Shown one piece after another: positions 1,790 to 26,708 of a stretch of 27,471 nt of DNA (position 1 is its first letter; each line of letters starts with the position of its first letter). The position numbers and the translations under genes were made by a program. The notes under the pieces were generated by a model, which was given only the letters and a program-made list of their open reading frames with translations, was not told the DNA's origin and did no database searches. The stretch comes from a virus, in the IMG/VR virus record IMGVR_UViG_3300044640_001275, positions 1 to 27,471 of that record; one strand, given 5' to 3'.

Positions 1790-2161
1790 TTAATATTCTT
1801 TATACGATTTTTCTTCAACAAAAGATGAACCGTATTTAATATTAATCTCTTTTTTTATTTCCGATCTTTGATCATTTGTAACATAAACAGATCTCGCCAA
1901 TTCAATAAAGTCAGAGTCAAATTGTTTTTCCCTTTCTTTGTTTCTTATTTTATCTTCAATATCCCAAAGACGTTCATTAACAATTTGTAATTTATGAAAA
2001 TCCTCAGAATCAATCTTTAATTTATTAAATACTATTTCAAATAGGTAATCGTATTCCTTAATAATATTATTTAATTTGTCTTTGTCGGTTATGTTAAGTT
2101 TTTTAATTCTTAAAATAGATAGTTTATCTACTATCTCCCCAATTGAAACTTCTATTTCCAT
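1790..2161 (-). CDS. DUF6165 family protein
   Basis: A 123-residue soluble, charged, probably helical protein. It opens EVSIGEIVDKLSILRIKK and contains LWDIEDKIRNKE, FIELARSVYVTNDQRSEIK and a closing VEEKSYKEY. I recognise these as the conserved blocks of DUF6165, a small family usually found beside sugar-transfer and surface-polysaccharide genes; its biochemical role is unknown to me. It is the last gene of the minus-strand operon. Its ATG overlaps the stop of the upstream glycosyltransferase (TAATG), indicating translational coupling, so it most likely works with those enzymes. No cysteine or catalytic motif stands out. Confidence 0.75.
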   Translation of the reverse strand: MEIEVSIGEIVDKLSILRIKKLNITDKDKLNNIIKEYDYLFEIVFNKLKIDSEDFHKLQIVNERLWDIEDKIRNKEREKQFDSDFIELARSVYVTNDQRSEIKKEINIKYGSSFVEEKSYKEY

Positions 2162-3078
2162 TATTTATTTGTTATTAATTCAAGTAAATCGTTAAATGCC
2201 GCATTTGGTGATGGGTGACATTCATACTTTGGTTTATTTTCAAAACAACCTGGACTTTTATAACCATTCCATCTTGTTATTTTTTCATCTCCTAATACAT
2301 TATATTTCATATCTGATTGGCAAAATAATTTACAAGATCCTCCAACAAATTTATGTTTGTAATCTTGTCTTCCATTTCTGTAAGGCGTTCTATAGTAAGG
2401 ATTAATTGCGCTACCCAATTCAATTATGTTTGTGTCAGTGGTTCCTGCTAAATGTAATAACCCACTATCCATTGTGAAGATAGCAAAACTATTATTTATA
2501 ACGTGCCAAATTTGTGAAAGATTTAATTTATTACCCGTGTTAATGACATTAGGGTTATCTATCTTAAAGAAACTTTTTTTGTCATCACCATATGTAACAT
2601 CTTTACCATCAACAACAACTTTATAACCTAAGTCAAGAATCATGTTAATTAATTTTTCCCACTTCTCCTGATCCCAAGTTCTTGATTCCCAAGTTATGGA
2701 TGGGTTTACAACAACGTATCTACCTTCAGGTAGATCAATGTCCAATGGATCAGGATAGAACTCTAAGGTTCTTTCTTCGGGGGTTAAGATACACCCTAAA
2801 TGTGTTGACCAATAGTCAACTAAGTGCATCTTTCTAATTTGTTTTTGTGTGTCACCAAAGTTGTGACCATTACAATCATAAAACACAAAATCGTGTGGCA
2901 TTATTTGACCTTCTTCGGGGTTGTATATTTTGTCAACATATGGATTGTTTCTAAATATTTCTGGTCTGTTGGTCTCAACACTCAATTTACGATTATGTGA
3001 TTTACTAAAGTACTTCAATAATGGTGTGGAGTTTAACACATCACCAAAACACCCTGATATTTTAAACCCTAATTCCAT
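2161..3078 (-). CDS. Glycosyltransferase family 9 (heptosyltransferase-like)
   Basis: A 305-residue GT-B fold glycosyltransferase of the ADP-heptose:LPS heptosyltransferase type. The start is placed at the ATG at 3078, one base after the upstream stop, because that gives the family N-terminus (MELGFKISGCFGDVLNSTPLL, a G-D-x-L-x-x-T-P pattern). A longer frame would overlap the upstream gene by 26 bases. Visible blocks are NNPYVDKIY (44-52), ESRTWDQEKW (131-140) and the nucleotide-sugar region TMDSGLLHLAGTTD (202-215). Four cysteines lie near the C-terminus (249, 253, 278, 287), as in many GT9 enzymes and in TibC. It is a clear paralog of the plus-strand gene at 6075-7013. The donor sugar and the acceptor (virion protein, host surface glycan or other) cannot be read from sequence. 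Confidence 0.85.
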   Translation of the reverse strand: MELGFKISGCFGDVLNSTPLLKYFSKSHNRKLSVETNRPEIFRNNPYVDKIYNPEEGQIMPHDFVFYDCNGHNFGDTQKQIRKMHLVDYWSTHLGCILTPEERTLEFYPDPLDIDLPEGRYVVVNPSITWESRTWDQEKWEKLINMILDLGYKVVVDGKDVTYGDDKKSFFKIDNPNVINTGNKLNLSQIWHVINNSFAIFTMDSGLLHLAGTTDTNIIELGSAINPYYRTPYRNGRQDYKHKFVGGSCKLFCQSDMKYNVLGDEKITRWNGYKSPGCFENKPKYECHPSPNAAFNDLLELITNK

Positions 3079-3079
3079 T

Positions 3080-6007
3080 TTATTTTCTATTATCCATATA
3101 TACAATTACTTCACAATAATATTCTAAGAAATGATCATTATAAAGATTCCATTTTATATCAACTCCATCTACGGAGAAAACTTGTATGTTATCAAATTGT
3201 GGGAAGATATTATCTCTAAACCATTTGAACTTACATTTATGGAAATTTTCATCATCTCTCATATGGAACTCAGTGACAATCTTTGGAATTGTTTTTAAGA
3301 ATTCAATGTTACTTTGTTGGAACACATCGTATTCTCCACCTTCACAATCACACTTTAAGAAATCAATGTGTTTAATGTTATTCTCTTCTAAAAATTCTTT
3401 GAAGGTAAATGTTGGAACACTTTCACTAACATCATCCCAAGTGATATCAATTTTCTTTTTATCTGTGATTGCTCCTTGAATAATTTTAACGTTATCTCTA
3501 CCGACATTTTTATTGAGGACATCAATCTGATAAGACAATGGTTCTACAACATAACATTGTTTTGGGTTCTTTGGTAGGATCTTATATGTGAATGGACCTA
3601 ATGACGCTCCTAAATCCACAACAACATCACCTTCTTCAACCTCAAAGAATCTTTCATATATGTCATCTTCAAATATTTCTTTTATTGCGGCATCTACGTA
3701 CCAATTACTTTTTTTACCCCAATCAAAAACAATTTCATCTGATTTTTCTACCATTACTTCTTTGTTAATTATTTTATTTATTTGTTTTATTACCATGTCT
3801 GAACTTATTTGTTTTGTACATTCAAACATACGACTTGTATTTTTATGTAGTGGACACCAATTACAATCACCGGCATCTAATCTTTCTGAATTAAAACATC
3901 CGTGACAAACACTTTCGTTGATGACTCTGTATGTATCTAAAGTTGTTTCTGCCCATTTCTCACTAAACCCTGAGATTAAAACAACAGGTAGTTTACAAGC
4001 CCAAGCCAACCAACTCAATCCTGATCCAAGACCAATGAAAAATTCGCAAGATGACAAATCATCAATTACTTCTTGTAGATTACCACCTTTAAAAATTGTT
4101 ACACCTTTAGGATGAACGTTATTCATATAACCATCACCTTCTTTAGAATAAATCATACACTCATAACCTAAATCGTTAAGGTGGTCAACAACCGATTGCC
4201 ACCCGTTAGGGTTGTTCCAATACTTTGCTTGTGCGGTTGAATGGAAACCAATACCTACCTTTTTCTTTTTGGGTGTGTTAGGTAATTTTAATAGAGGTCT
4301 CACTTCCTTATAATCTAAACCTAATATGTCTGTTGCGGTTTTTTGTAACGGAATCTTTTTAAAATCAAAAGGATGTTTGTTATTATCATATTTACCGTCT
4401 TCATTGTAAAACCAACCTAATCTATATTGTGCGTGTATATTTGGAACCAAATCACCTGGTTCAACAAATTTAATGTTAGGGTACTGATCTTTAAATAAAC
4501 TATTAAGGAATGTGGAAACTATAAGTTCACAACCGTGTTTTTCTCTGAAGATTTCACAATATGGAATCCAAGCCATTGTATCCCCTAAAGATTTTGAACC
4601 AAACGAAATATAAACTCTTTTATCTTTTAGATCTAAAGTTTGGTCATATATCATTTCACCATTTTCCTCAACGGTAGTTCTCCATTTAATAAAGTATTCT
4701 TTTTTTAATTTAATCCAACTATTAATTGATAGTTCATTTTGGTAAACATTATTATTATTACCGTCATAACAATTAATTTTTAATTTGTTGTCTGATGTCC
4801 CCAACACTTCAAAATAAGGTTGTGTAACATAATGTCTAACAAACGTGTAGTCATTCTTTAATGGTTTGTTTTCTGTGACATCTAAATTACTTACCGTTTG
4901 ATACATCGCAAGTAAATCCTCACCAAATGTTTTGTCAGGTAATATCTTATACTCATCTTTACTATTAATGAGATTAACTAATTGTTTTGATATATTTTTT
5001 ACGTCACCTTCAATTGGTGTTATATAGTCATCAAACATACCCATGTATTGTGGTAAATCTCTTGCAATAATTTTCATACCGTAGTTAATTGATTCTCTAA
5101 CTACCAATGGATTACACTCCCAAGTTGAGTTAAACATTAACACATCACAAGCCGTCATGAATTTATCAACGTCAGATCGTTCCCCCCATACTTTAACATT
5201 TGAAGGTAAGTCCTTCATAATAGGTCCCCAATATTCCTCAAAGTTTGGAGCTTGGTTTCCAATGAAGTGAAATTCAATATCGGGGTTTGATTCAACTAGT
5301 TCTCTTGCAACATTAATGCCTTCACCTTGATTCTTACCACTTGTCCATAAACCAACATTAAGTACGTGAGTTTTAAACATATCTAAACCAAGTTCATTTC
5401 TAACCTTTATTTTTTCAATAAGAGGTACCTGATTAAAGTTTCCGTATATTTCGTTTTCTTTTAAAATTTCTGTTACCTTATCTTCAATAGGGTATAACGA
5501 TAAAAATTTCATTGGTTTTTCTTTTGAGAACGTATCTTTTAGATGGTAAGGTGTGACAAAACAATATGCGTCAGGATTGAACTTTTTATGTGTTTGAGGG
5601 TTAAACCAAATGTTATGACAAGTTTCAATTATTTTCCAAGTTCTATCATTTGAATATAACTCGTTCAATACCGTTAGTGGGATCTTATTAAAACTTTCAA
5701 ACCCTTCTAACATTTCTTCTGAGTGAACAATATGAATATGATTATTCTTTATAATGTCAATCAAATGAGATTTTCTTTCGGTATCTTTTGTATCACCTAA
5801 ACTAAAGAAATGACCATCACCCAATAGATTAATGATTTCATTTCTTTGTACAACATACGTATCACTAAATTTAGAAAACTCAACCAAAAATATTTCAATT
5901 TGGTCTTTAAATTTTTGAAGTTCTTTAATTCGTTTTAATACGAATTGAGGCATCCCACCTGTTGATAGATGTGGCGTTAAATATAATAATCTAATTTTAT
6001 TTCTCAT
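3080..6007 (-). CDS. Three-domain GT4 / TibC-like heptosyltransferase / FkbM methyltransferase
   Basis: A 975-residue fusion. Residues 1-375 look like a GT4 (GT-B) glycosyltransferase, with LYLTPHLSTGGMPQFV at the start, HVLNVGLWTSGKNQG near 214-228 and an E-x7-E pair (E297, E305). Residues 395-745 match the autotransporter O-heptosyltransferase (TibC/BAHT, GT9-related) pattern: EYFIKWRTTV, DLKDKRVYISFGSKSLGDTMAW, LQKTATDILGL, HSTAQAKYWNNPNGWQ, and a cysteine cluster (701, 704, 715, 718, 730) like the iron-binding site of TibC. Residues 785-975 are an FkbM-type SAM methyltransferase (DLGASLGPFT 798-807; LKCDCEGGEYDVF 884-896). It is the first gene of the minus-strand operon, one base before the next ATG. 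Expected chemistry is transfer of two sugars plus methylation of a hydroxyl. The acceptor is unknown; TibC-type enzymes modify Ser in proteins. Confidence 0.85.
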   Translation of the reverse strand: MRNKIRLLYLTPHLSTGGMPQFVLKRIKELQKFKDQIEIFLVEFSKFSDTYVVQRNEIINLLGDGHFFSLGDTKDTERKSHLIDIIKNNHIHIVHSEEMLEGFESFNKIPLTVLNELYSNDRTWKIIETCHNIWFNPQTHKKFNPDAYCFVTPYHLKDTFSKEKPMKFLSLYPIEDKVTEILKENEIYGNFNQVPLIEKIKVRNELGLDMFKTHVLNVGLWTSGKNQGEGINVARELVESNPDIEFHFIGNQAPNFEEYWGPIMKDLPSNVKVWGERSDVDKFMTACDVLMFNSTWECNPLVVRESINYGMKIIARDLPQYMGMFDDYITPIEGDVKNISKQLVNLINSKDEYKILPDKTFGEDLLAMYQTVSNLDVTENKPLKNDYTFVRHYVTQPYFEVLGTSDNKLKINCYDGNNNNVYQNELSINSWIKLKKEYFIKWRTTVEENGEMIYDQTLDLKDKRVYISFGSKSLGDTMAWIPYCEIFREKHGCELIVSTFLNSLFKDQYPNIKFVEPGDLVPNIHAQYRLGWFYNEDGKYDNNKHPFDFKKIPLQKTATDILGLDYKEVRPLLKLPNTPKKKKVGIGFHSTAQAKYWNNPNGWQSVVDHLNDLGYECMIYSKEGDGYMNNVHPKGVTIFKGGNLQEVIDDLSSCEFFIGLGSGLSWLAWACKLPVVLISGFSEKWAETTLDTYRVINESVCHGCFNSERLDAGDCNWCPLHKNTSRMFECTKQISSDMVIKQINKIINKEVMVEKSDEIVFDWGKKSNWYVDAAIKEIFEDDIYERFFEVEEGDVVVDLGASLGPFTYKILPKNPKQCYVVEPLSYQIDVLNKNVGRDNVKIIQGAITDKKKIDITWDDVSESVPTFTFKEFLEENNIKHIDFLKCDCEGGEYDVFQQSNIEFLKTIPKIVTEFHMRDDENFHKCKFKWFRDNIFPQFDNIQVFSVDGVDIKWNLYNDHFLEYYCEVIVYMDNRK

Positions 6008-6055
6008 AATACTTTAATGATAAAAAAGTTTTTGTAATTCTGTATTTTATAAGTC

Positions 6056-6066
6056 ATTTATTTATA
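6056..6066. promoter_or_regulatory. A/T-rich element in the 67-base divergent intergenic region
   Basis: The region 6008-6074 separates divergent genes and must hold starts for both. Read on the plus strand, ATTTATTTATA resembles the recurring TATTTAT element upstream of other genes here, 8 bases before ATG 6075. Read on the minus strand, 6066-6059 is TATAAATA, the T4 late-promoter consensus, 51 bases before the ATG at 6007. The sequence cannot say which strand is used. Confidence 0.35.
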
Positions 6067-6074
6067 CTTTTAAT

Positions 6075-7013
6075 ATGAAAAAAGTATGTTTAGATTTATT
6101 AGGTTGTAGGGCGTTAGGTGATACCTTGGCTTCAACTCCGACTTTAAGAAAACTTTACCACACATATGGTCAGAAAATTTCGGTTATAACTTATCACCCA
6201 TATCTATTCTCAAATAACCCATATGTTGATGTAATTTATGATGAGGTGGTTAATCCGTTAACAGATGAACAGAGACAAGAATATGAGGTCTTTAATTCAT
6301 TTAATATTGGTTATCACCCAAATGGTGTTTGTTATAAACACAATGCAATGGATATCAGACAATTTCACGCAATTAATCTTGGGTTTATGTTAACCAAAGA
6401 TGAAATGGAATTGGATTATATTTCAGATAAATACGAACCGATTGAAGGTCTACCTGAAAAATATATTTTAATTCACCCCGTTCAAAATTGGAATTCAAGA
6501 ACATGGGATGCAAAAAAATGGCAACTACTTGTAAAACTTTTAAATCAAAAAGGAATTACAGTTGTTTCAGTAGGTAAAGATTCTTCTGAACTTGGTGGAT
6601 CCAATGTGGATAAACCTGTATTTAATTTTCCAATAGAATTAGGTATGAACCTAATGAACCAAACAAGTTTATCACAAACTTGGCACCTCATCAATAAATC
6701 AATGTGTTTTATTACAATGGACTCAGGTCTATTACATTTAGCGGGAACAACAGATGTTGAAATCATTCAATTGGGTAGTTCAATTAATCCTGAGTTCAGA
6801 TCGCCATATAGAAAAGGATATCAAGAATATAAGTACCACTATGTTAGAGGTGGTTGTGGTTTAAATTGTGCTTCCGACATGAGATACGGAGTTAGAGAAT
6901 GGGGTTCAATTCAGGGGATTCCTTCGTTAGTAAATTGTTTGGAAAGAAAAGAAACATTTGAATGTCACCCAAACCCAATCATTGTCTATAATAAGGTCTT
7001 GGAAATTATATAG
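6075..7013 (+). CDS. Glycosyltransferase family 9 (second paralog)
   Basis: A 312-residue GT9-type glycosyltransferase. The N-terminus MKKVCLDLLGCRALGDTLAS is the family G-D-x-L start. It shares with the minus-strand paralog at 2161-3078 the blocks NNPYVDVIY (48-56), NSRTWDAKKW (140-149), TMDSGLLHLAGTTD (214-227) and the R-x-PYR-x-G-x-Q-x-YK stretch. Its four C-terminal cysteines (261, 265, 288, 297) keep the same C-x3-C and C-x8-C spacing as the paralog, suggesting a shared structural or metal site. It is transcribed away from the three-domain gene across a 67-base divergent region. As one of three GT9-like modules in 5 kb, it probably adds a further sugar to the same glycan. Donor and acceptor are unknown. 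Confidence 0.86.
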   Translation: MKKVCLDLLGCRALGDTLASTPTLRKLYHTYGQKISVITYHPYLFSNNPYVDVIYDEVVNPLTDEQRQEYEVFNSFNIGYHPNGVCYKHNAMDIRQFHAINLGFMLTKDEMELDYISDKYEPIEGLPEKYILIHPVQNWNSRTWDAKKWQLLVKLLNQKGITVVSVGKDSSELGGSNVDKPVFNFPIELGMNLMNQTSLSQTWHLINKSMCFITMDSGLLHLAGTTDVEIIQLGSSINPEFRSPYRKGYQEYKYHYVRGGCGLNCASDMRYGVREWGSIQGIPSLVNCLERKETFECHPNPIIVYNKVLEII

Positions 7014-7018
7014 GTCTT

Positions 7019-7029
7019 GATATTTATTA
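7019..7029 (+). promoter_or_regulatory. Recurring GATATTTATTA element
   Basis: One copy of the ATATTTAT element found upstream of many genes here, 12 bases before ATG 7042 and in the short gap after the 7013 stop. Its repeated placement suggests a phage promoter or operator; no function is proven. Confidence 0.4.
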
Positions 7030-7041
7030 TTAAAAACTATT

Positions 7042-8022
7042 ATGTCAACAACAAGACCTTTTGCGTATAATACAGGATCACCAATTGACGGAACAATACA
7101 AGTTGGTAATTTATCCATTGGTTACCCAACAACAGGATATACAGGAACCGAATGGTGGAATGGGCCCGACGAAGAATTGGGTTATGTAATTGCTCAACCT
7201 GTTTCAGGTGATACCCAACCAACACCTGTTTTTGGACAAACAGCATCCGTTGGTTTTTTTAGAACTAACGGTTTTGATGACAATGAATTTATTGATATTG
7301 CAAATATACTTTTAAATTCAAATTACGATAACGCACCTGACGCTTCAACAGGTTTAACAACAAATGGTTATTGGAATTCATATCTTATCCCTATTCTATC
7401 TTTAGATGCGGGTAACCCATTAAGTTATCCGGGTACAGGAACAGTTTGGACTGATATAATTGGCGGCAAAACATTTAATTTAGTTAATGGTCCTGGATAT
7501 GATCCGAGTAATGGAGGTAAATTTTATTTTTATGCTCCCGGTGGGCAATACGCAATATGTAACACAAGTTTACCAAGTTTAAGTACTTGGACTGTTGGTG
7601 TTTGGCATTACTACACAGGGTCGGAAACAGGCAGCGCACCTTGTATTGTTACTGAAACCTTTGTTGGTGGAGGTATAAACTATTCACTTGGTAAAAATAA
7701 TGGTCCATTTAGTGTAGGATTCTTTAATGGCGGATGGCAAGTTACGGATGGTTATTCATTAACACCAAATAATTGGTATTTTATTGTCGGAACTTACGAT
7801 GGGTCAACTATTAATTTATATGTTAACAATACGTTAGTAGATAGTACTAACTATGTGGGAACACCAACATCATCAGGTTCTGGTATAAGATTAATGGAAC
7901 GATGGGATTTATCAGATTATTGGGATGGTTATTTATCAATAGTTAACATTTATGATAAAGCGTTAAACCCAAGTCAGATAACTTCTTATTGGAACTCAAC
8001 TAAATCAAGATTCGGATTATAA
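7042..8022 (+). CDS. Phage tail/adhesin-like protein with LamG-type lectin domain
   Basis: A 326-residue protein. Residues 1-60 (RPFAYNTGSPIDGTIQVGNL, then EWWNGPDEELGYVIAQ) form a compact N-terminal module that looks like a virion attachment segment. Residues about 118-322 resemble a concanavalin A/LamG beta-sandwich: LDAGNPLSYPGTGTVWTD, the central TWTVGVWHYY, NWYFIVGTYDGSTINLYVNN, and the closing WDGYLSIVNIYDKALNPSQI. This domain type commonly binds sugars in phage fibre proteins. No signal peptide is present. It is followed within 3 bases by the Cys-rich gene at 8026, so the two are likely co-expressed. Its position amid glycosyltransferases hints that it, or its neighbour, may be a substrate. 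The tail-fibre/baseplate role is inferred from the domain type. Confidence 0.7.
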   Translation: MSTTRPFAYNTGSPIDGTIQVGNLSIGYPTTGYTGTEWWNGPDEELGYVIAQPVSGDTQPTPVFGQTASVGFFRTNGFDDNEFIDIANILLNSNYDNAPDASTGLTTNGYWNSYLIPILSLDAGNPLSYPGTGTVWTDIIGGKTFNLVNGPGYDPSNGGKFYFYAPGGQYAICNTSLPSLSTWTVGVWHYYTGSETGSAPCIVTETFVGGGINYSLGKNNGPFSVGFFNGGWQVTDGYSLTPNNWYFIVGTYDGSTINLYVNNTLVDSTNYVGTPTSSGSGIRLMERWDLSDYWDGYLSIVNIYDKALNPSQITSYWNSTKSRFGL

Positions 8023-8025
8023 TAA

Positions 8026-8553
8026 GTGTCTAACGTTATTCAAATATCAAACCCAACAGGTACTCCACCATTTAACGTTTACGTTTGTGATGTAACAAAC
8101 ACGTATTGTTATTTTGCAATAACTTTTGGTGGTGGAACAATAACCTTTGATTCTCCCGCACCATTAGAATATGCTACACCAATATTAATAAAAATAATTG
8201 ATTCCCAATTATGTGAATCATTCCAATACTACCAATGTGTTCCTACCCCAACACCGACACCAACCCCAACATTAACACCTACCGCAACAGGACCTTGTAC
8301 TTGTTGTTGTCTTGCAGTTAGTTGTGATAATGGTAGTGGAGGATCTTTCACTTATACCGATTGTTTTGGGAATGTTATAGGTAATGTTCTTGTTGCCGGT
8401 AATTCTATTGTATATTATTGTGGTAGTAATGTAACTAATTTAAGTAATGTCGTAGTTAATTACGGATCACCTTGTGTTGATGGGACTTGTGTATTACCTA
8501 TACCGACATCAACTAGTACTCCAACACCAACACCAACATCAAGTGCAAAGTAG
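8026..8553 (+). CDS. Cys-rich two-module virion-like protein with Pro/Thr linkers
   Basis: A 175-residue protein that starts with GTG, 3 bases after the preceding stop. Module 1 (residues 1-71) is beta-rich with Cys 21, 28, 63 and 71 and contains NPTGTPPFNVYVCD. A Pro/Thr alternating linker spans residues 73-89. Module 2 (90-155) begins with the cluster C91-T-C93-C94-C95 and has Cys 100, 113, 132, 150 and 155. A second Thr/Ser/Pro tail spans 158-173. I do not recognise a named family, but small beta modules strung on Pro/Thr linkers suggest an exposed structural protein. The linkers are candidate O-glycosylation sites given the GT60 gene that follows. Disulfides would not form in the cytoplasm, so the cysteines may bind metal or oxidise after lysis; that is speculation. 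Confidence 0.7.
   Translation: MSNVIQISNPTGTPPFNVYVCDVTNTYCYFAITFGGGTITFDSPAPLEYATPILIKIIDSQLCESFQYYQCVPTPTPTPTPTLTPTATGPCTCCCLAVSCDNGSGGSFTYTDCFGNVIGNVLVAGNSIVYYCGSNVTNLSNVVVNYGSPCVDGTCVLPIPTSTSTPTPTPTSSAK
8242..8292 (+). repeat. Pro/Thr-rich mucin-like linker, residues 73-89
   Basis: Codons for PTPTPTPTPT-type sequence between the two cysteine-rich modules of the 8026-8553 protein. The Thr and Pro codons are mixed (ACC, ACA, ACG; CCA, CCG, CCT), so the tract is kept at the protein level and is not a simple slippage repeat. A second tract lies at 8497-8547. Confidence 0.7.
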
Positions 8554-8584
8554 TTAATATTTGTCATAGCAGTTAATTAGTTTC

Positions 8585-8593
8585 TATTTATTA
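8585..8593 (+). promoter_or_regulatory. Recurring TATTTATTA element
   Basis: Copy of the recurring element in the 77-base gap (8554-8630) before the GT60 gene, 37 bases upstream of ATG 8631. Nothing else recognisable, including a hairpin terminator, is visible in that gap. Confidence 0.35.
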
Positions 8594-8630
8594 TTCTATC
8601 TTCATTAGTATTTTTTCCATAAAAAGAAAT

Positions 8631-9878
8631 ATGAAAATATTTGTGCAAATAGCATCCTATAGAGATCCACAATTAATTCCAACAATAAAAGATATGTTGG
8701 ATAAATCAAAAAAACCAAAAAACATTAGACTTGGTATTGCAAGACAATTTCACCCTGAAGACGGTTTTGATGATCTGTCAGAATATGAAGATGATCACAG
8801 ATTTAGAATATTAGATATTCCATATACAGAATCAACAGGTGTTTGTTGGGCAAGAAATTTAACCCAACAATTATATAACGGTGAAGAATATACCTTACAG
8901 ATTGATTCTCATATGAGATTTGAACAGGATTGGGATGACACCTTAATCAAAATGATTAAACAATTACAAAAGAAAGGTCACAAAAAACCTCTGTTAACAG
9001 GATACGTTTCTTCATTTGATCCTGATAATGACCCACAAGGAAGAGTTAAGGAACCGTGGAGAATGTCATTTGATAGATTCACACCTGAAGGATGTGTTTT
9101 CTTTTTGCCTGAAACAATACCAGGTTGGGATAAACTAAAAAGTCCAATCCCGTCAAGATTTTATTCCGCTCACTTCTGTTTTACTTTAGGTCAATTCTCT
9201 ACTGAGGTACAACATGACCCTGAGTTTTATTTCCACGGAGAAGAAATCTCAATTGCAGTTAGAGCTTACACGCATGGTTATGATTTATTTCACCCACATA
9301 AAACTGTTATTTGGCATGAATACACTCGTAAGGGTAGAACAAAACAATGGGATGATGACAAAGAATGGGGTAAAAGAAATGAAAGATGTCACCAAAAAAA
9401 TAGACAGTTATTAGGTGTTGATGGTGAAACTCCTGATAGTGATTTTGGTATCTATGGTTTAGGTACTGAAAGAACAATTCAAGATTATGAAAAATATGCT
9501 GGAGTATTGTTCTCAAAAAGAGCGGTTCAACAATACACATTAGATAAAAAATACCCACCAAACCCTTACATATATAGTTCGGAAGAAGAGTGGAAAGGAT
9601 CATTCTCTTCAATATTCAAACATTGTATTGACGTTCATTATGGTAGTGTCCCTGAAACAGATTATGATTTTTGGGTTGTGGCGTTCCATAACTCAAAGGA
9701 TGAAACGTTATATAGATTAGATGCCGGAGTTGACGAGATCAATAGAATGAAAAACGACCCTGATGGTTATTGTAAGATATGGAGAGAATTTAATGCCACT
9801 GATAAACCAACCTATTGGGTTGTATGGCCTCACTCAGTATCAAAAGGGTGGTGTGATAGATTAACAGGTAATTTATAA
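8631..9878 (+). CDS. GT60-family polypeptide GlcNAc-transferase-like glycosyltransferase
   Basis: A 415-residue protein whose first 265 residues match the Skp1/mucin GlcNAc-transferase family (GT60, Pfam GlcNAc). Blocks seen: IFVQIASYRDPQLIPTIKDM (3-22), YTESTGVCWARNLTQQLY (65-82), the metal/donor motif LQIDSHMRF (89-97; D-S-H), REPWR-type KEPWRMSFDRFTPEG (140-154), SRFYSAHFCFTLG (175-187), FHGEEISIAVRAYTHGYDLF (201-220) and WHEYTRKGRTKQWDDDKEW (228-246). Characterised relatives move GlcNAc from UDP-GlcNAc to hydroxyproline of Dictyostelium Skp1 or to Thr of Trypanosoma cruzi mucins. Residues about 300-415 are an extra domain with several Trp, of unknown function. The next gene's ATG follows after one base, so translation is coupled. 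Protein-directed activity in the phage is inference; family membership is well supported. Confidence 0.85.
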   Translation: MKIFVQIASYRDPQLIPTIKDMLDKSKKPKNIRLGIARQFHPEDGFDDLSEYEDDHRFRILDIPYTESTGVCWARNLTQQLYNGEEYTLQIDSHMRFEQDWDDTLIKMIKQLQKKGHKKPLLTGYVSSFDPDNDPQGRVKEPWRMSFDRFTPEGCVFFLPETIPGWDKLKSPIPSRFYSAHFCFTLGQFSTEVQHDPEFYFHGEEISIAVRAYTHGYDLFHPHKTVIWHEYTRKGRTKQWDDDKEWGKRNERCHQKNRQLLGVDGETPDSDFGIYGLGTERTIQDYEKYAGVLFSKRAVQQYTLDKKYPPNPYIYSSEEEWKGSFSSIFKHCIDVHYGSVPETDYDFWVVAFHNSKDETLYRLDAGVDEINRMKNDPDGYCKIWREFNATDKPTYWVVWPHSVSKGWCDRLTGNL

Positions 9879-9879
9879 T

Positions 9880-11457
9880 ATGAAGATAGTTGTTGCTCAA
9901 TTTTATACATCAAATGTTTCTTATGGTAAATTCTCTGAAGAAATAAATCAAAAATATTGTAATGATAATGGTTACGAATATTTTGTGGAACGTGATGGGG
10001 ACAAAATAAAGAATAAAATTGGATCTCGTTCTTGGACTTGGTATAAACCATTTTTAATAGAAGAAGTATTTTTAAATCACCCCGATTGTGATTACGTTTT
10101 ATTTATGGATATTGATGCCATATTTTGTAATAACAATAGAAAAATAGAGGAGTTCATTACAAATGATTTTAGTATATTAATGACAGAAGATCACGGACCA
10201 TCATTGGTTAATGCCGGTGTTATGTTATTAAAGAACAATCAATTCTCAAAAGAATTTATAAAAGATTGGTGGGACATATGTGAAGAATTTCCAAATTATA
10301 AACAAGGGTTATGGCACGACCAAACTTGTATTGGTTTACTACACCAAAGATTAAAATCACCAGAACAATTTAAAATTATTAAAAATAATGATTTTAATGC
10401 AAGGGAGTACAATGAAGAAAGGTTTATATTTCACGCATTTGCGTATGGGTCACTTCCAAACAGAAGTATTGACAACATATATAAAAAGAAATTTAATTAT
10501 GTTGATACCGTAAAAAGAGAAAACATAAATGCCATTGTGTATCACATTTATTGTGTGGGTAATTATTTAGATATTGTTAATTCTCAAATTAAAAGATTAA
10601 AAGAATCTGGCTTATACGATTGGTGTGACATTATGGAAGTTACTTGTATTGATGTTAATCAACAGTATAATGGTATTGATCAAATCTTTGATGGGATGGA
10701 TAAAGTTAATATGTTTAAAACTCATAGAAATAGTTATGAGTATTGGGCAATTAAAAAAATTTGGGACTTATCTCAAACCTATAACGGACAAGTTTTTTAT
10801 TTCCATTCAAAAGGAGTATCAAACAATTATACCAATTTAAACACAAAAGAAATAAACCAATGGAAAGTAAGTGGCATATCTTACTGGAGAGAGATGTTAG
10901 AATATTATTTAATTGATGACTTCAAAGATTGTTTATCAAAATTAGAAACTCATGATAGTTGCGGAGTCACTTGTAATGGTGGTTGGTTTTGGGGTAACTT
11001 TTGGTGGTCTAATTTATCATTTGTAAGAGAAAATTCAGAACCTGTTTTTGGTGACAGATGGTACTTTGAGGCTTGGTTAAATAAAGGTAGGGATCACAAT
11101 AGTTATGAGTATTATAAATTTAATTTTAACCCATATTTTTCTAATTTACCTACTTACATTTATAAAAATAATGAATTAAAAGAAAGGATTGTTACTATTG
11201 ATTCGGCATTTTACGGCACACTTGGTATTCAATTAGATGAGGGATATCCTAATGACATTCCATTACTCCAATCAGATGTTACGGAAAAAGTAAAACAACA
11301 TTTAACAAACAATGAGATTATGATTAATGTGGATAACACAATATTTGGTGATCCGGCATATAATCATAGAAAATTTTTATTAATTAATATAAACATTGAT
11401 GGTGAACCATATCGTGTGGTTTTTAGTGAAGGTACCCATGCAAAATTAAAATTATAA
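9880..11457 (+). CDS. Multidomain glycosyltransferase (GMA12/MNN10-like N-terminus)
   Basis: A 525-residue protein with at least two transferase-like parts. Residues 1-205 look like a GT-A enzyme of the galactosyl/mannosyl (GT34-like) kind: MKIVVAQFYT at the start, WYKPFLIEEVF (54-64), DYVLFMDIDAIF (71-82; the D-x-D metal motif is 77-79), NAGVMLLKN (111-119) and LWHDQTCIG (144-152). Residues 215-430 form a second module (YHIYCVGNYLDIV, VFYFHSKGVSN, and GGWFWGNFWWSNLSFVR at 367-383) of a type often fused to surface-glycan transferases. Residues 435-525 (DVTEKVKQHL, GDPAYNHRKFLLI) are a small beta domain distantly like DUF3395 of DnaJC11; this last match is tentative. The gene lies one base after the GT60 gene and shares its transcript. 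Substrate unknown. Confidence 0.72.
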   Translation: MKIVVAQFYTSNVSYGKFSEEINQKYCNDNGYEYFVERDGDKIKNKIGSRSWTWYKPFLIEEVFLNHPDCDYVLFMDIDAIFCNNNRKIEEFITNDFSILMTEDHGPSLVNAGVMLLKNNQFSKEFIKDWWDICEEFPNYKQGLWHDQTCIGLLHQRLKSPEQFKIIKNNDFNAREYNEERFIFHAFAYGSLPNRSIDNIYKKKFNYVDTVKRENINAIVYHIYCVGNYLDIVNSQIKRLKESGLYDWCDIMEVTCIDVNQQYNGIDQIFDGMDKVNMFKTHRNSYEYWAIKKIWDLSQTYNGQVFYFHSKGVSNNYTNLNTKEINQWKVSGISYWREMLEYYLIDDFKDCLSKLETHDSCGVTCNGGWFWGNFWWSNLSFVRENSEPVFGDRWYFEAWLNKGRDHNSYEYYKFNFNPYFSNLPTYIYKNNELKERIVTIDSAFYGTLGIQLDEGYPNDIPLLQSDVTEKVKQHLTNNEIMINVDNTIFGDPAYNHRKFLLININIDGEPYRVVFSEGTHAKLKL

Positions 11458-11471
11458 AAAAATTAAATAAT

Positions 11472-13163
11472 ATGAATGGAAATATAACATTAGTTACCGG
11501 TCTTTGGGATATGGGTAGAGGTAATCTTGAAGGATGGGCGAAAAGAGACTTTGATTATTATAAAAATAGATTCTTTGAATTTTTGGAAACAGATGTTCAA
11601 ATGTGTATTTGGATACCTAAAGATTTAGAAGATGAAGTATTAAGGATACGTGGTGATAAACCAACAAAAATATTTATTAAAAACTTGGAGGATTTTAAAA
11701 CTTGGAATCCATTCTTTGATAAAATACAAGAAATAAGAAACACAGACAGTTGGAAAAATTTTGCTGGTTGGTTAGGTGATTCCCCCCAAGCAAGATTAGA
11801 ATATTACAACCCGATGATGTTTACCAAGATGTTCATGTTAAATGATTCCGCAATTGTTAATCCATTTAATTCCGAATATCTTTTTTGGGTTGATGGTGGT
11901 TTAACAAACACAGTTAATTCAGGGTATTTTGTAAAGGACAAAGTATTAGATAATTTAGAAAACTATATGTTGTCTTTAGATAAAGAATATGTTCATATAA
12001 CATATCCTTATGAATATAACGATGAGATTCATGGGTTTGAGAGAAAACAAATGGCAAAGTATTGTAATACTGATTATGTAAATTATGTTGCAAGAGGTGG
12101 TTTCTTTGGTGGACATAAAAATACAATCCATAATATGAATACATTATATTATGGAGTTATGGAGTCAACGTTGAATGATAATTTAATGGGCGCCGACGAA
12201 TGTTTATTCACAATCATGTGTCACAAATACCATGATTTAATCCATAGATTTGAGATTGAAGGTAATGGGTTAGTGTGGCCATTTTTTGAAAACCTAAAGA
12301 AATTTGACAAACCAATTAATTTTGAAACCAAGATTAAAATTAATGATGTTGGTAGTGATATTGGTTTATATGTTATAACATTTAATTCACCAAAACAATT
12401 TGAAACTCTTATTGAGTCTATGTTATCATACGATCCATCATTCATAACTAAGACTAAAAAATACTTACTTAATAATTCAACTGATTTATCAACAACTCAA
12501 AGGTATAATGATTTATGTGAACAATATGGGTTTGAACACATTAAAAAAGATAATATAGGTATTACGGGTGGTAGACAATTTATTGCCGAACATTTTAATG
12601 ATCAAAATAATTTAAGTCATTATTATTTCTTTGAGGACGATATGTTCTTTTATGATGGTTCAGACGTAACTTGTAAGAATGGTTTTATTAGAAAAATTAA
12701 AAATATTTTTGATAACACTTTAAAAATTATTAAAGAAGAAAACTTTGACTTTTTAAAATTAAATTTTACTGAATTTTATGGTAGTCATATTAAACAATGG
12801 TCTTGGTATAATGTTCCTCAATCTTTTAGGGAATCTCATTGGGTAAACAACCCAAGATTGCCTGAACATGGTTTAGACCCTAACTCACCTAATTTAGAAT
12901 TCAAATATATTAAATCTTATAATGGTATACCATATGCCACAGGTGAGATTTATTTGTGTAATTGGCCAATAGTAATGTCAAAAGAAGGTAATTACAAATG
13001 TTATCTTAAAACAAAATTTAGTATGCCTTACGAACAAACTCTTATGTCCCATTGTTATCAGGAAATGGTTAAAGGTAAAATAAAAGGATCTGTTTTACTT
13101 GCAACCCCAACAAATCATAACAGATTTGATTTTTATGATGGTAAATTAAGAAAAGAATGTTAA
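11472..13163 (+). CDS. Bimodular glycosyltransferase (HtrL/WlaTC-like plus GT-A module)
   Basis: A 563-residue protein. Residues 1-285 resemble the HtrL/YibB-WlaTC family: ITLVTGLWDMGRGN (5-18), RLEYYNPMMFTKMFML (108-123), NPFNSEYLFWVDGGLTN (130-146), and ARGGFFGG (207-214) followed by ADECLFTI. Residues 296-563 look like a second GT-A module: GLYVITFNSPKQFETLIESM, NIGITGGRQFIAEHF (361-375), the acidic metal-binding motif YFFEDDMFF (385-393), and an SMPYEQTLMSHCYQE block near 517. It ends the plus-strand glycosyltransferase run that began with GT60, with 14 bases and no recurring promoter element before its ATG. It probably extends the same glycan. Exact donor and linkage cannot be assigned. 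Confidence 0.7.
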   Translation: MNGNITLVTGLWDMGRGNLEGWAKRDFDYYKNRFFEFLETDVQMCIWIPKDLEDEVLRIRGDKPTKIFIKNLEDFKTWNPFFDKIQEIRNTDSWKNFAGWLGDSPQARLEYYNPMMFTKMFMLNDSAIVNPFNSEYLFWVDGGLTNTVNSGYFVKDKVLDNLENYMLSLDKEYVHITYPYEYNDEIHGFERKQMAKYCNTDYVNYVARGGFFGGHKNTIHNMNTLYYGVMESTLNDNLMGADECLFTIMCHKYHDLIHRFEIEGNGLVWPFFENLKKFDKPINFETKIKINDVGSDIGLYVITFNSPKQFETLIESMLSYDPSFITKTKKYLLNNSTDLSTTQRYNDLCEQYGFEHIKKDNIGITGGRQFIAEHFNDQNNLSHYYFFEDDMFFYDGSDVTCKNGFIRKIKNIFDNTLKIIKEENFDFLKLNFTEFYGSHIKQWSWYNVPQSFRESHWVNNPRLPEHGLDPNSPNLEFKYIKSYNGIPYATGEIYLCNWPIVMSKEGNYKCYLKTKFSMPYEQTLMSHCYQEMVKGKIKGSVLLATPTNHNRFDFYDGKLRKEC

Positions 13164-13167
13164 TTGC

Positions 13168-13192
13168 AATATTTATTGTAAAAACAATAAAT
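13168..13192 (+). promoter_or_regulatory. Recurring AATATTTATT element within a perfect inverted repeat
   Basis: AATATTTATT at 13168-13177 is another copy of the recurring element. It overlaps a perfect inverted repeat with 9-base arms (ATTTATTGT at 13171-13179, ACAATAAAT at 13184-13192) and an AAAA loop. The right arm covers the first two bases of the ATG at 13191. The dyad could be a protein-binding operator, or an mRNA hairpin that masks the start codon. Confidence 0.5.
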
Positions 13193-13769
13193 GGAATTTT
13201 ACATTAAGAAAAATGCTACGTTGCCCGTTTTAAAGATGCAAGTCGTTAAGGACGGTAGAAGTGATTATAACAAGATGATGGAAATGATTGAGGAGGCTTC
13301 TATCTTCTTTTCTATGGTAGATACTGAAACAGGAATTCCACGAATCGTTACAAGACCTGCGGGGTTTGTTGAGAAGAAATTATTAGACCCAAATGCAGAA
13401 TACGAATACTATGTGTATTATCAATTTACACCAAACGACACAAGAAAGGTTGGTAGATATGAAGGTCAGTTCTTATTAAGAAATTCAGATGGTACATTAA
13501 TTTTACCAATTAGAGAAAAACTATATATAAACGTACAGGAAAGTTTTATTGCGGACGATCTTCCGTATGAATCTTGTTATGTTGTTAGTTTCCCTTGTTG
13601 TGTAAGTATTCCAACGACAACCACAACAACCACAACTCCTTGTCCTTCTTGTAGACCTTGTTGTCCGCCAACACCGACACCGACAACTACAACGACTACA
13701 ACAATAATACCAACTACAACAACTACAACGTTTATACCAATCACAACAACTACAACATTTCAAGGTTGA
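13191..13769 (+). CDS. Virion-associated-like protein with poly-Thr mucin-like tail
   Basis: A 192-residue protein. Residues 1-125 form a beta-rich domain (MEFYIKKNATLPVLKMQVVK, FFSMVDTETGIPRIV, YEYYVYYQFTPNDTRKVGRY, LPIREKLYINVQESF) reminiscent of phage baseplate or tail-associated proteins; I cannot name the family. After Cys 129, 136 and 137 comes a low-complexity tail (140-192) with Thr runs of 8, 7, 6 and 5 residues, a Cys/Pro cluster (PCPSCRPCCPP) and Ile-Pro spacers; 28 of the last 52 residues are Thr. Thr codons are mixed, so the tract is selected as protein. The tail resembles T. cruzi mucin acceptor repeats (T8KPP), which are GT60 substrates. It lies directly after the glycosyltransferase run. 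Structural role and glycosylation are inference. Confidence 0.7.
   Translation: MEFYIKKNATLPVLKMQVVKDGRSDYNKMMEMIEEASIFFSMVDTETGIPRIVTRPAGFVEKKLLDPNAEYEYYVYYQFTPNDTRKVGRYEGQFLLRNSDGTLILPIREKLYINVQESFIADDLPYESCYVVSFPCCVSIPTTTTTTTTPCPSCRPCCPPTPTPTTTTTTTIIPTTTTTTFIPITTTTTFQG
13608..13766 (+). repeat. Poly-Thr mucin-like tract, residues 140-192
   Basis: Thr runs of 8, 7, 6 and 5 separated by Pro, Ile and Cys. Codons within the first run are ACG, ACA, ACC, ACA, ACA, ACC, ACA, ACT, so the tract is not a uniform triplet expansion. It is the longest candidate O-glycan acceptor in the window. Confidence 0.75.
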
Positions 13770-13794
13770 CATCAAAATAATTTTATGATATACT
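13766..13794 (+). promoter_or_regulatory. Sigma70-like promoter for DNA polymerase
   Basis: A perfect -35 TTGACA (13766-13771), a 17-base spacer and -10 TATACT (13789-13794; 5 of 6). The -35 overlaps the stop codon of the preceding gene. Transcription would start near 13801, leaving a leader of about 54 bases before ATG 13855. This is the clearest sigma70-type site in the window. It differs from the recurring ATATTTAT element, so the polymerase may be expressed earlier than its neighbours. The Bacteroidota -7 pattern TAnnTTTG is also nearly met by TACTTATG at 13791. Confidence 0.6.
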
Positions 13795-13811
13795 TATGAG
13801 TGTAAGGTAAA

Positions 13812-13828
13812 TTTCGTTATACACGAAA
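13812..13828 (+). promoter_or_regulatory. Leader hairpin upstream of DNA polymerase, possible translational operator
   Basis: TTTCG (13812-13816) pairs with CGAAA (13824-13828) around a 7-base loop, TTATACA, 26 bases before the polymerase ATG. T4 and RB69 DNA polymerases repress their own translation by binding a small leader hairpin (5-base-pair stem, 8-base loop in T4). The size and place are similar, but this hairpin is farther from the start codon and weak on its own. Confidence 0.35.
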
Positions 13829-13854
13829 GCCAATGAACCAACTCAAAAAGTATT

Positions 13855-16653: not shown

Positions 16654-16661
16654 TGAGGTGT

Positions 16662-17012
16662 TTATAACATCTTCAAACCATCGGACGAAAGTATATACCA
16701 GTTACCCTGAACAAATTGAAATTGGACACAAGCTCCTTTTTCTAATAATAGTTCATCCCACTCCTCATCAATCTTACCCGTGTTAGGTTTAACTAAAACA
16801 CTAACCAATGATTTTATAATTATACGATTGGTGGTTTCAGAATTTAATAATATTTCTGATCCACCGATTGTTTTAACAATAATTAAATCTTCACCATTTG
16901 TGGTGTAATTTTTTTCTAACAAAATTAAATTATCGTATTTTGTATTATCTTCTATGACGATATTTTGTTTCATTATTGTTTTTCTTATAGGTACTTCTTT
17001 AATTATTGGCAT
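16662..17012 (-). CDS. Small hypothetical protein, possibly virion-associated
   Basis: A 116-residue protein with alternating hydrophobic/polar beta-like segments (IIVKTIGGSEILLN, TNRIIIKSLVSVLVKP) and a C-terminus FQFVQGNWYILSSDGLKML. The NWYILSSDG ending resembles short segments of phage fibre and decoration proteins, but no family is recognised. The ATG at 17012 lies one base after the stop of the neck-like gene, so it is translated from that transcript; an internal Met at residue 14 is an alternative start. It converges with the DNA polymerase gene. Its company suggests a head/tail accessory role, which is only a guess. Confidence 0.5.
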   Translation of the reverse strand: MPIIKEVPIRKTIMKQNIVIEDNTKYDNLILLEKNYTTNGEDLIIVKTIGGSEILLNSETTNRIIIKSLVSVLVKPNTGKIDEEWDELLLEKGACVQFQFVQGNWYILSSDGLKML

Positions 17013-17013
17013 A

Positions 17014-18138: not shown

Positions 18139-18150
18139 ATGACTTTTATT

Positions 18151-18160
18151 AATAAATATC
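18151..18160 (-). promoter_or_regulatory. Recurring GATATTTATT element
   Basis: Minus-strand copy 12 bases before ATG 18138, in the 25-base gap after the SOD-fusion stop; it continues into a short palindrome, TTTATTAATAAA. Same orientation relative to its gene as the other copies. Confidence 0.4.
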
Positions 18161-18163
18161 TTA

Positions 18164-19252: not shown

Positions 19253-19256
19253 TATT

Positions 19257-19286
19257 GATAAATATTATCAATAACATAAATATTTA
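19257..19286 (-). promoter_or_regulatory. Two recurring AATATTTAT elements upstream of the SOD fusion
   Basis: The 31-base gap between the helicase stop and ATG 19252 carries two ATATTTAT copies (minus strand, 19286-19276 and 19266-19258). The second sits in a dyad whose 7-base arms, ATTGATA and TATCAAT, flank AATAT. This is the only promoter-like region with a doubled element. Confidence 0.45.
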
Positions 19287-23366: not shown

Positions 23367-26300
23367 ATGGCAACTAACGGTAAAGTATTCGTATCACCTG
23401 GTGTTTATACTTCTGAAGTGGATTTAAGTTTTGTAGCACAAAGTGTGGGGGTTACCACATTAGGTATTGCAGGTGAAACTTTAAAGGGTCCGGCTTTTGA
23501 ACCGATATTCATCAAAAATTATGAGGAATTTCAAACGTATTTCGGTGGTACATCCGCTGAAAAATTTGTGAACACACAAATCCCTAAGTATGAGGCGGCT
23601 TACATCGCTAAATCATATTTACAACAATCTAATCAATTATTCGTAACAAGAATCTTAGGTCTTTCAGGTTATGATGCGGGACCATCATGGTCTATTATAA
23701 CACAAGCAAATGTTGATCCTAATACGATTGACTTTTATTGTGAAGATCCACAAATCGTAGATTGTTTACCTTATTGTGATCCGGCAGATTATAAAACATT
23801 AAACTATACTGTAGAATTTACGGGATGTTCAAACTCACAAGCGTCAATTAGTTATGTAACTAATTTCCCTGATGAAATTGAAAATCTTTTAACTGTTCCT
23901 TTTGAGCAATTCAATGGTAACACATCAACATTAGAAACCCAAATCAATAATTTGATTTCTGATGTATTAACAGATGCTAATCCATTAACCGCACAAACTA
24001 ACACAATTGAATATTTTGGTTCTATATACGGTCCTGACTACGATACATTGTCAACAGTTTTCACAAATGAAACTAATGTTTATGGTGTACCTTCAGTATC
24101 AAGTACTTTGACTGATTATACGTCACCATTCAACGATCCTTGGTATTATTCATTGTTTTCTAACAATGGTAACAATAGTTATTCAGGATTCTCATTCTTT
24201 GCATATGTTGATGATTTGACTTTAATACCGGTAACTACAACAACAACAGTCGCAACAACTCCAACTCCTACACCATCAGCGGTTAATCCATGTGCTACGG
24301 CAACACCAATGCCGTCACCAACACCTACACCAACTGCGGTTAATAACAATTGTTATACAGGTACTATTAATGGAACAATTTATTATTACACAGGTACATC
24401 TTACACTGAGTACGATAATTTAGTTGTTGGTACATTAAGATCAAGAGGTATTGCGACATATGAGGACTCTACAAACCCAGTATTTGAAGTAACAGACATT
24501 AATCATGTTACTATAGATATGAGTGGTCAGTATTCAGGTGTTACTAAAAACCCTTACTTACCATTTTTAATCAATGTTACAAATGATGAAGGTACTTCAT
24601 TTACGTTTGAAACTTCATTCGCAACTTCAGATTCTCAATATATTTCTAAAGTATTCGGAGCAACTAACTTCCAAAAACCAAGAAAAAATGTTCCTTTATT
24701 CTTAGAGGAAAGATTCCAAGCGTTATTAAACTACGGATGGAACAAAGGATACATTAGAGGTTTGAGTTCAGAATTAATAGCGTTAGATTCAGCACAAAGT
24801 GGACAACAAGATAGTATTGGATGGTACTTAGATAGATACCAATCACCAAGTACTCCTTGGATTGTTTCTGAGTTAAGAGGTACAAAAGTATTTAACTTAT
24901 TCAAGTTCTACTCAATTTCTGATGGTAATTCAGCAAACTCTGAAATTAAAGTTTCACTTTTCAATATGTCATTCTCCAATGGAACGTTTGATGTAATTGT
25001 AAGAGATTACTATGATTCAGATGCTAACCCAACAGTTTTAGAGAAATTTACAAGTTGTAGTATGGACCCAAGTCAAAATAATTTCATCGGTAAAAAAATC
25101 GGATCTTTAGACGGAGAATACGCATTGAACTCTAAATTTGTAATGGTTGAGATGAATGAAGATGCACCTGTTGATTCATTACCTTGTGGTTTTGACGGAT
25201 ACACATTCAGAGAGTACGATGGTGTTACACCTCCATTCCCTGTTTACAAAACTAAATATGATTTCCCAGGTGAAGTTGTATATAACCCACCGTTCGGATT
25301 TACAAACGGTAACGATGATTCCATCAGATCAAATGGTGATAACGTTAGAAGAACTTATTTAGGTTTCTCTAACAACATTGGATTTGATACTGACTTCTTC
25401 CAATACAAAGGAAAACGTGCTCCAATTGACTTATGTAATGTTGATGGAGTTGAATGGGGTTATCAAACAAGAGGATTCCACATGGATAAAGACGCTAGTG
25501 TTATTGAAATAGGACCGGCATTTGCAACAAGTGGAACACCTAAATACTATGTTGGTGATGCTACATTCCAACAAGAACCTACAAGTGAAACAAGTCCATA
25601 TTACAGAATTTACTCAAGAAAATTCACAACAATGTTCTATGGTGGTTTTGATGGATGGGATATCTATAGAGAATACAGAACAAACGGAGACAGATATGTT
25701 TTAGGTAGAACTGGATTCTTGAATGGAGCTTGTCCTTCACCAAGATACCCAACCGCAACAGGATGGGGATCATTTAAACAGATCTCAATCGGTGATGGAA
25801 CACAAAGTTTTGCAAATACTGACTACTACGCTTACTTATTAGGAATCCAAACATTCTCTAATCCTGAGGCGGTTAACATCAATGTATTTGTATCTCCAGG
25901 TATTGACTATGTAAACAATAGTGACTTAGTTGAATCAACAATTGATATGATTGAAAACAACAGAGCTGACTCATTGTATATCACAACAACACCTGACTAC
26001 AACTTGTTCTTACCAACAACTACAGGTGGTGATGGATTAATTTACCCACAAGAAGCGGTTGACAACTTAGAACAAACAGGAATTGACTCTAACTACACGG
26101 CAACTTACTACCCATGGGTATTAACTCGTGATAGTGTGAACAATACGCAAATCTACATCCCAGCAACGGCTGAGGTGACAAGAAACTTGGCATTGACCGA
26201 TAACATTGCATTCCCATGGTTCGCAGCAGCAGGTTACACAAGAGGTATTGTAAACTCAATCAAAGCTCGTAAGAAGTTGACTCAAGAAGATAGAGATACT

Positions 26301-26708
26301 CTTTACCAAGGAAGAATCAACCCAATCGCAACCTTCTCTGATGTTGGTACGGTAATTTGGGGTAATAAGACTCTTCAAGTTAGAGAATCTGCACTTGATA
26401 GAATCAACGTAAGAAGATTATTATTACAAGCTCGTAAATTGATTTCAGCAGTTTCTGTGAGATTGTTGTTTGATCAAAACGACGAACAAGTAAGACAAGA
26501 CTTCTTAAATGCGGTTAATCCGATCTTAGATGCTATCAGAAGAGACAGAGGTTTATACGACTTTAGAGTTACGGTTTCAAGTGACACTGAAGACTTAGAT
26601 AGAAATCAATTAGTAGGTAAAATCTATATCAAACCAACTCGTTCTTTAGAGTTCATAGATATAACATTCTACATCACTCCAACAGGAGCATCGTTTGATA
26701 ATATCTAA
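23367..26708 (+). CDS. Contractile tail sheath protein with large inserted mucin-like domain
   Basis: A 1113-residue tail sheath, far longer than T4 gp18 (659). The N-terminus (KVFVSPGVYTSEVDLSFVAQ, TTLGIAGETLKGPAFEPIFI, LFVTRILGLSGY to residue 102) and the C-terminus (RINVRRLLLQARKLISAVSV, FLNAVNPILDAIRRDRGLYD, DRNQLVGKIYIKPTRSLEFI) are the conserved sheath ends that interlock neighbouring subunits. Between about 110 and 400 is extra sequence with Cys 125, 133, 137, 154, 309 and 329 and a Thr/Pro tract at 288-326. In T4 such insertions lie on the outer surface of the tail, so this tract is probably exposed. The gene has an A-rich leader and ends at a strong hairpin terminator, consistent with very high late expression. 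Confidence 0.93.
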   Translation: MATNGKVFVSPGVYTSEVDLSFVAQSVGVTTLGIAGETLKGPAFEPIFIKNYEEFQTYFGGTSAEKFVNTQIPKYEAAYIAKSYLQQSNQLFVTRILGLSGYDAGPSWSIITQANVDPNTIDFYCEDPQIVDCLPYCDPADYKTLNYTVEFTGCSNSQASISYVTNFPDEIENLLTVPFEQFNGNTSTLETQINNLISDVLTDANPLTAQTNTIEYFGSIYGPDYDTLSTVFTNETNVYGVPSVSSTLTDYTSPFNDPWYYSLFSNNGNNSYSGFSFFAYVDDLTLIPVTTTTTVATTPTPTPSAVNPCATATPMPSPTPTPTAVNNNCYTGTINGTIYYYTGTSYTEYDNLVVGTLRSRGIATYEDSTNPVFEVTDINHVTIDMSGQYSGVTKNPYLPFLINVTNDEGTSFTFETSFATSDSQYISKVFGATNFQKPRKNVPLFLEERFQALLNYGWNKGYIRGLSSELIALDSAQSGQQDSIGWYLDRYQSPSTPWIVSELRGTKVFNLFKFYSISDGNSANSEIKVSLFNMSFSNGTFDVIVRDYYDSDANPTVLEKFTSCSMDPSQNNFIGKKIGSLDGEYALNSKFVMVEMNEDAPVDSLPCGFDGYTFREYDGVTPPFPVYKTKYDFPGEVVYNPPFGFTNGNDDSIRSNGDNVRRTYLGFSNNIGFDTDFFQYKGKRAPIDLCNVDGVEWGYQTRGFHMDKDASVIEIGPAFATSGTPKYYVGDATFQQEPTSETSPYYRIYSRKFTTMFYGGFDGWDIYREYRTNGDRYVLGRTGFLNGACPSPRYPTATGWGSFKQISIGDGTQSFANTDYYAYLLGIQTFSNPEAVNINVFVSPGIDYVNNSDLVESTIDMIENNRADSLYITTTPDYNLFLPTTTGGDGLIYPQEAVDNLEQTGIDSNYTATYYPWVLTRDSVNNTQIYIPATAEVTRNLALTDNIAFPWFAAAGYTRGIVNSIKARKKLTQEDRDTLYQGRINPIATFSDVGTVIWGNKTLQVRESALDRINVRRLLLQARKLISAVSVRLLFDQNDEQVRQDFLNAVNPILDAIRRDRGLYDFRVTVSSDTEDLDRNQLVGKIYIKPTRSLEFIDITFYITPTGASFDNI
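24228..24344 (+). repeat. Thr/Pro mucin-like tract inside the sheath, residues 288-326
   Basis: Encodes PVTTTTTVATTPTPTPSAV followed by Cys and PMPSPTPTPTAV. The composition matches the linkers of the 8026 and 13191 genes. It lies in the non-conserved central insertion of the sheath, flanked by Cys309 and Cys329, and is a candidate surface O-glycosylation site. Confidence 0.7.

Follow-up and report, generated by a model that had tools for sequence, protein, structure and literature searches.

The closest described relatives of the phage protein analyzed here are TibC and AAH (TIGR04414; PDB 4RAP, 4RB4), BAHT enzymes that use ADP-heptose to heptosylate Ser residues of autotransporters directly. 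The working parts of TibC, i.e., the catalytic Asp110, the donor contacts, the thumb and the iron finger, were defined previously, and Arg286, which contacts adenine N1, was found to be highly conserved in BAHTs and to leave little or no activity when replaced by Ala (PMC4358343). The stereoselectivity for heptose is set by Pro300 in TibC and by Ser294 in AAH (PMC4358343).

Two further systems bear on the surroundings of this protein. In T. cruzi, a UDP-GlcNAc:polypeptide alpha-GlcNAc-transferase is known, and the glycosylation of mucins starts with the transfer of alpha-GlcNAc to Thr (PMC3769586). In mycobacteriophages, there is precedent for glycosylated capsid and tail proteins (Freeman 2023, as cited in PMC12619734); in the citing text, the subunits of the capsid and of the tail tube carry the glycans at their C-termini, and mucin-like tracts are unmentioned.

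A three-domain phage protein with a TibC-like core

An earlier note on the DNA analyzed here (hereafter the window, a 27,471-nucleotide stretch from virus record IMGVR_UViG_3300044640_001275) claimed that three normally separate enzymes are joined in 975 residues. Pfam and NCBIfam domains and, for the first two parts, AlphaFold2 fold matches agree on the joining, each of the three parts containing the domain assigned to it, and the observation of a three-domain single phage protein holds (Table 1). The GT4 part matched PF00534 at residues 202-343 and has the other features of its class, a GT-B fold and an E-x7-E motif (E297/E305). The middle part contains the TibC/BAHT signature that had been reported, including HSTAQAKYWNNPNGWQ, and matched TIGR04414 (Aah/TibC) at residues 407-746 with 294 bits, above the curated (equivalog) cut-off of 200 bits. 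The C-terminal part exceeded the cut-offs of both PF05050 and TIGR01444 (FkbM) at residues 795-922, and a SAM motif is present, with DLGASLGPFT and KCDCEGGE in its sequence.

Table 1. Features of the window and the evidence on which each was assigned
Feature	Position	Strand	Evidence
GT4 / TibC-like / FkbM fusion, 975 aa	3080..6007	minus	ORF call (ATG start), domain scans, recurrence in viral contigs
GT4 (GT-B) domain, residues ~1-385, E297-x7-E305 motif	4853..6007	minus	PF00534, VIA Z ~23 to GT4 structures
TibC-like domain, residues 387-751, N-terminal beta-barrel	3755..4849	minus	TIGR04414 294 bits, VIA Z 36 to 4rb4, residue map
Iron-finger segment, C701, C704, C718, C730 (C715 extra, non-conserved)	3818..3907	minus	Alignment to TibC, conservation
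FkbM-type methyltransferase module, residues ~758-975, swapped or absent in relatives	3083..3736	minus	PF05050, TIGR01444
GT9-like transferase directly downstream of fusion, own four-Cys finger	2161..3105	minus	PF01075, alignment; likely start, ATG near 3078
DUF6165 small protein, end of fusion gene row	1790..2161	minus	PF19662
Second GT9-like transferase, four-Cys finger, divergent neighbor of fusion	6075..7013	plus	PF01075
Protein with (PT)n mucin-like tracts, directly upstream of GT60 gene	8026..8553	plus	Tract search, association test
GT60-type polypeptide GlcNAc-transferase (predicted)	8631..9878	plus	PF11397, 249 bits vs 21 cut-off
GT34/DUF273-type transferase	9880..11457	plus	PF05637, PF03314
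HtrL_YibB protein	11472..13163	plus	PF09612, model and fold search
Thr-rich mucin-like protein	13191..13769	plus	Tract search
Tail sheath protein with short Thr/Pro tract	23367..26708	plus	phrog_23, tract search

The best PDB sequence match of the fusion was TibC (4rap/4rb4, E ~1e-67). An AlphaFold2 model had a mean pLDDT of 78.6 and a pTM of 0.49, the relative placement of its domains being uncertain. When the model was overlaid on TibC, residues 387-751 aligned over 354 residues with a VIA Z of 36.1 and an rmsd of 2.7 Å, including the N-terminal barrel and the thumb; residues 2-377 matched GT4 enzymes with a Z of ~23. The FkbM assignment is based on Pfam and NCBIfam, and an FkbM fold was not among the PDB fold matches listed for the model, a list that the larger domains fill. 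Structure matches over most of the fusion were also obtained with two UniProt entries, A0A6J5SVC1 (‘Glycosyltransferase Aah/TibC’ of an uncultured Caudovirales phage, 924 aa) and A0A7S9XE01 (Virus NIOZ-UU157, 985 aa). These are the same kind of phage multi-domain enzyme, known by their database names only, and a function for either was not found in the literature searched.

In the alignment to TibC, the catalytic D110 is kept as D476, and T226, K230 and W305 are kept as T591, K595 and W666; the tip of the thumb is hydrophobic, as in TibC (Y627/M628). The iron cysteines 339, 342, 358 and 370 of TibC correspond to C701, C704, C718 and C730, which are invariant in A1 and A3 and are predicted to bind iron. 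The catalytic and metal residues are kept here and conserved across phages. The earlier note had described a cluster of five cysteines, of which these four stand as the TibC iron finger; a five-cysteine metal site was rejected because the fifth position, C715, is Trp in relatives.

The phage domain has in common with TibC and AAH the beta-barrel, the GT-B catalytic lobes, the hydrophobic thumb tip, the four-Cys finger, the catalytic Asp and the Thr/Lys/Trp donor contacts. It differs from them in its fusion to a GT4 domain and a methyltransferase, in the replacement of R286 by V647, in a Gly (G661) at the P300/S294 position, which is also Gly in most relatives, in its placement in a separate clade, and in that no SLS acceptor was found for the phage-side proteins.

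Transferases and mucin-like proteins around the fusion

The fusion gene heads a minus-strand row that continues with a GT9-like enzyme and DUF6165. In both GT9-like transferases that flank the fusion, a four-Cys finger is found where TibC has its iron finger, and relatives of the divergent one (6075-7013) were present in 12 of the 19 related loci compared. The transferase genes of the window lie among tail and adhesin genes. The window also encodes, at 18164-19252, an Fe/Mn superoxide dismutase whose N-terminal extension carries a HEWVH zinc-protease-like motif, which is unusual for a phage.

PF11397, matched by the gene at 8631-9878, is a family that we take to be CAZy GT60 and to include the trypanosome enzyme. 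Like the T. cruzi alpha-GlcNAc-transferase, whose targets are mucins (PMC3769586), the product of this gene is associated with Thr/Pro-rich proteins, which are encoded beside it; unlike that enzyme, it is phage-encoded and accompanied by other transferases, and its function is a predicted one. A GT60 gene was present in 14 of 30 TibC-bearing records, the window being one of the 14, and GT60 and HtrL occurred together in 76 of 80 GT60 loci. The HtrL_YibB protein was modeled as two GT-A-like domains, of which the C-terminal one is closest to B4GALNT1, POMGnT1 and GnT-I (Z 15-16).

The ORF directly upstream of GT60 carried a Thr/Pro-rich tract in 62 of 77 loci, whereas ORFs drawn at random from these loci would give 13.5 (the highest of 2000 draws was 26). 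This adjacency is partly inherited, since one protein family accounts for 51 of the 62 tract-bearing proteins, with the rest spread over several others. Tract proteins numbered 2.9-10.9 per 100 kb in seven GT60-positive records versus 0-1.8 in four GT60-negative ones, a difference that is a trend in non-independent counts because the records are related. In cultured XacN1 and Stenotrophomonas phage RAS14, two jumbo phages whose GT60 proteins are only 43-46% identical, GT60, HtrL and large PT-rich proteins lie in one stretch, and the GT60/HtrL pair is also present in the cultured phage CM1. Between the GT60 and HtrL genes of Xanthomonas phage XacN1 lies an annotated carbamoyl transferase gene (L320, 19409-21706), which suggests that the XacN1 sugar may be carbamoylated. 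From the genomic association with Thr/Pro tracts, phage GT60 is predicted to transfer GlcNAc to Thr/Ser of a polypeptide. Literature searches yielded no paper linking GT60 with bacteriophage and nothing relevant on phage mucin-like glycosylation.

From this setting and from the domains we infer activity, donors, step order, acceptor and role, and we give an even chance to the reading that the fusion serves a large tailed phage as a modular enzyme for glycan assembly, acting on glycans of the phage’s own virion. The GT4 domain would add one sugar and the TibC-like domain another, and the FkbM domain would cap the product by O-methylation. The domains and kept residues are consistent with the claim of the earlier note that the protein could build and methyl-cap a glycan. 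The likeliest acceptor would be the phage’s own glycoprotein, i.e., a glycan on the mucin-like Thr/Pro tracts of tail and sheath proteins, which GT60 of the same locus may initiate with GlcNAc and the tandem transferase HtrL_YibB may extend. The link between the fusion and these tracts is only partial, because only 18 of 80 GT60 loci have a TibC-like domain nearby and the fusion also occurs in GT60-negative phages; the Thr/Pro tracts may also be mere spacers.

Enzymes of the GT9, GT4 and FkbM types are often found in the synthesis of polysaccharides and LPS, and the HtrL_YibB family is one of LPS loci. The fusion might therefore remodel the surface polysaccharide or LPS of the host during infection, e.g. 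as a block to superinfection. We consider this unlikely, given that the genes are located among those for tail and adhesin proteins and that the neighboring GT60 is of a polypeptide-acting family and stands beside mucin-like proteins.

Donor and acceptor of the TibC-like domain

The earlier note pointed to the BAHT function, transfer of heptose to Ser of autotransporters. If the middle domain were a true BAHT, it would place heptose from ADP-heptose directly on Ser of a protein, and the other two domains would extend and methylate the product. The TIGR04414 score above the equivalog cut-off, the TibC fold (Z 36) and the retention of D110, T226, K230, W305, the thumb and the iron finger favor this, whereas the changes at R286 and at the P300/S294 position speak against it. 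Among ~115 relatives, the cellular BAHT clade retains Arg286, while the large phage clade has Val, Leu, Thr or Ile at this position. A tree separated the cellular clade (21 rows, including E. coli TibC) from the phage-side lineage with an SH-aLRT of 99, and the Arg286 state changed three times on it; two phage-side fused proteins (L029 and L117) still have Arg286. Four proteins with fused N-terminal modules from MAGs (L112, L113, L118 and L120) were rejected as cellular copies, since their genes adjoin phage tail, baseplate, endolysin or connector genes and thus lie on phage contigs binned into MAGs.

The acceptor repeat points the same way. TIGR04415, the repeat modified by BAHTs, was found in 18 of 21 cellular-clade genomes, which served as a control, while it had no match in 38 phage records, that of the window being a fragment, or in 9 MAGs with the phage-side lineage. 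As for the donor, none of 23 records had HldE domain II above cut-off, and GmhA exceeded its cut-off in only 1 of 30 records and not in the window; the heptose donor could still come from the host. Altogether, functional membership in the BAHT family is not supported, failing on R286 and on the SLS/TIGR04415 partner, and we regard a true BAHT as quite unlikely. Because Arg286 is replaced and the TIGR04415 repeat is absent from the phage records, the donor and acceptor of the phage domain probably differ from those of BAHTs. Of what the earlier note proposed, the three domains, the TibC fold and the metal cysteines thus stand, and the functional BAHT identity does not.

It is very improbable that the fusion decorates phage DNA bases: DNA-glycosylating phage transferases are known, according to the text of PMC12619734 that cites them, but no base-modifying enzyme is present among the identified ORFs of the window, itself a fragment, and the characterized members of the TibC and GT60 families have protein as their substrate.

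Recurrence and exchange of modules in phages

A first viral scan returned 26 loci, nearly all with a fused GT4-TibC core, and a second scan, with a domain alignment as the query, identified TibC-like relatives in at least 518 viral contigs. A misassembly that joined separate genes, which the earlier note had named as a refuting case, has a negligible chance, since the same in-frame fusion recurs in independent contigs and samples. The usual phage form is GT4-TibC, and a few relatives have extra N-terminal transferases. The description of the three enzymes as normally separate is valid for cells but not for phages, where GT4-TibC is usual and FkbM exchangeable. Of 47 phage rows, 21 have a C-terminal module of at least 130 aa, a state that changes 8 times on the tree, and one relative (L044) retains a 51-aa FkbM remnant; FkbM is an optional, exchangeable add-on in phages. 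In another locus (L039, 2245-2717), the FkbM module was matched in two overlapping stretches in different frames, reflecting a frameshift or a sequencing error. Microcystis phage Mel-JY01 encodes a 1227-aa protein with a TibC-like C-terminus; GT60 was not found in this phage, nor were T/P tracts in the stretch examined.

Over positions 3758-19875 (~16 kb), the contig of L005/L238 matches the window at 99.9% identity; at residue 750 of the fusion it switches to a different C-terminal module, which L008 also carries in fused form. Another contig, that of L004, stops at the same residue-750 junction. The simplest reading of these metagenome contigs is that the last module has been exchanged at the population level between near-identical phages; chimeric assembly of one contig may be an alternative source of the difference. 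We conclude that the fusion is real, occurs widely among phages and is a modular enzyme built around a TibC-like core.

If this modular enzyme assembles virion glycans as proposed above, exchange of its C-terminal module between near-identical phages would change the glycan cap, and this would fit a shielding or varying of the virion surface. More broadly, large phages may possess a mucin-type O-glycosylation system of their own, comprising a GT60 initiator, mucin-like virion proteins that include the tail sheath, and swappable GT4-TibC-like multi-enzymes by which the virion glycan is lengthened and varied, the donor specificity of the TibC-like transferase having changed. We offer this as a tentative proposal, possible though short of even chances, and the tie of the fusion to such a system is its least proven part. 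The GT60/HtrL pair of the cultured phages XacN1, RAS14 and CM1 makes the core claim testable. A natural TibC-type enzyme with a probably changed donor and acceptor is useful for understanding specificity in the iron-finger family. If the proposal is true, a mucin-like coat of sugars whose caps can be exchanged would have arisen in phages, and surface variation of this kind is more familiar in cells and in eukaryotic parasites.
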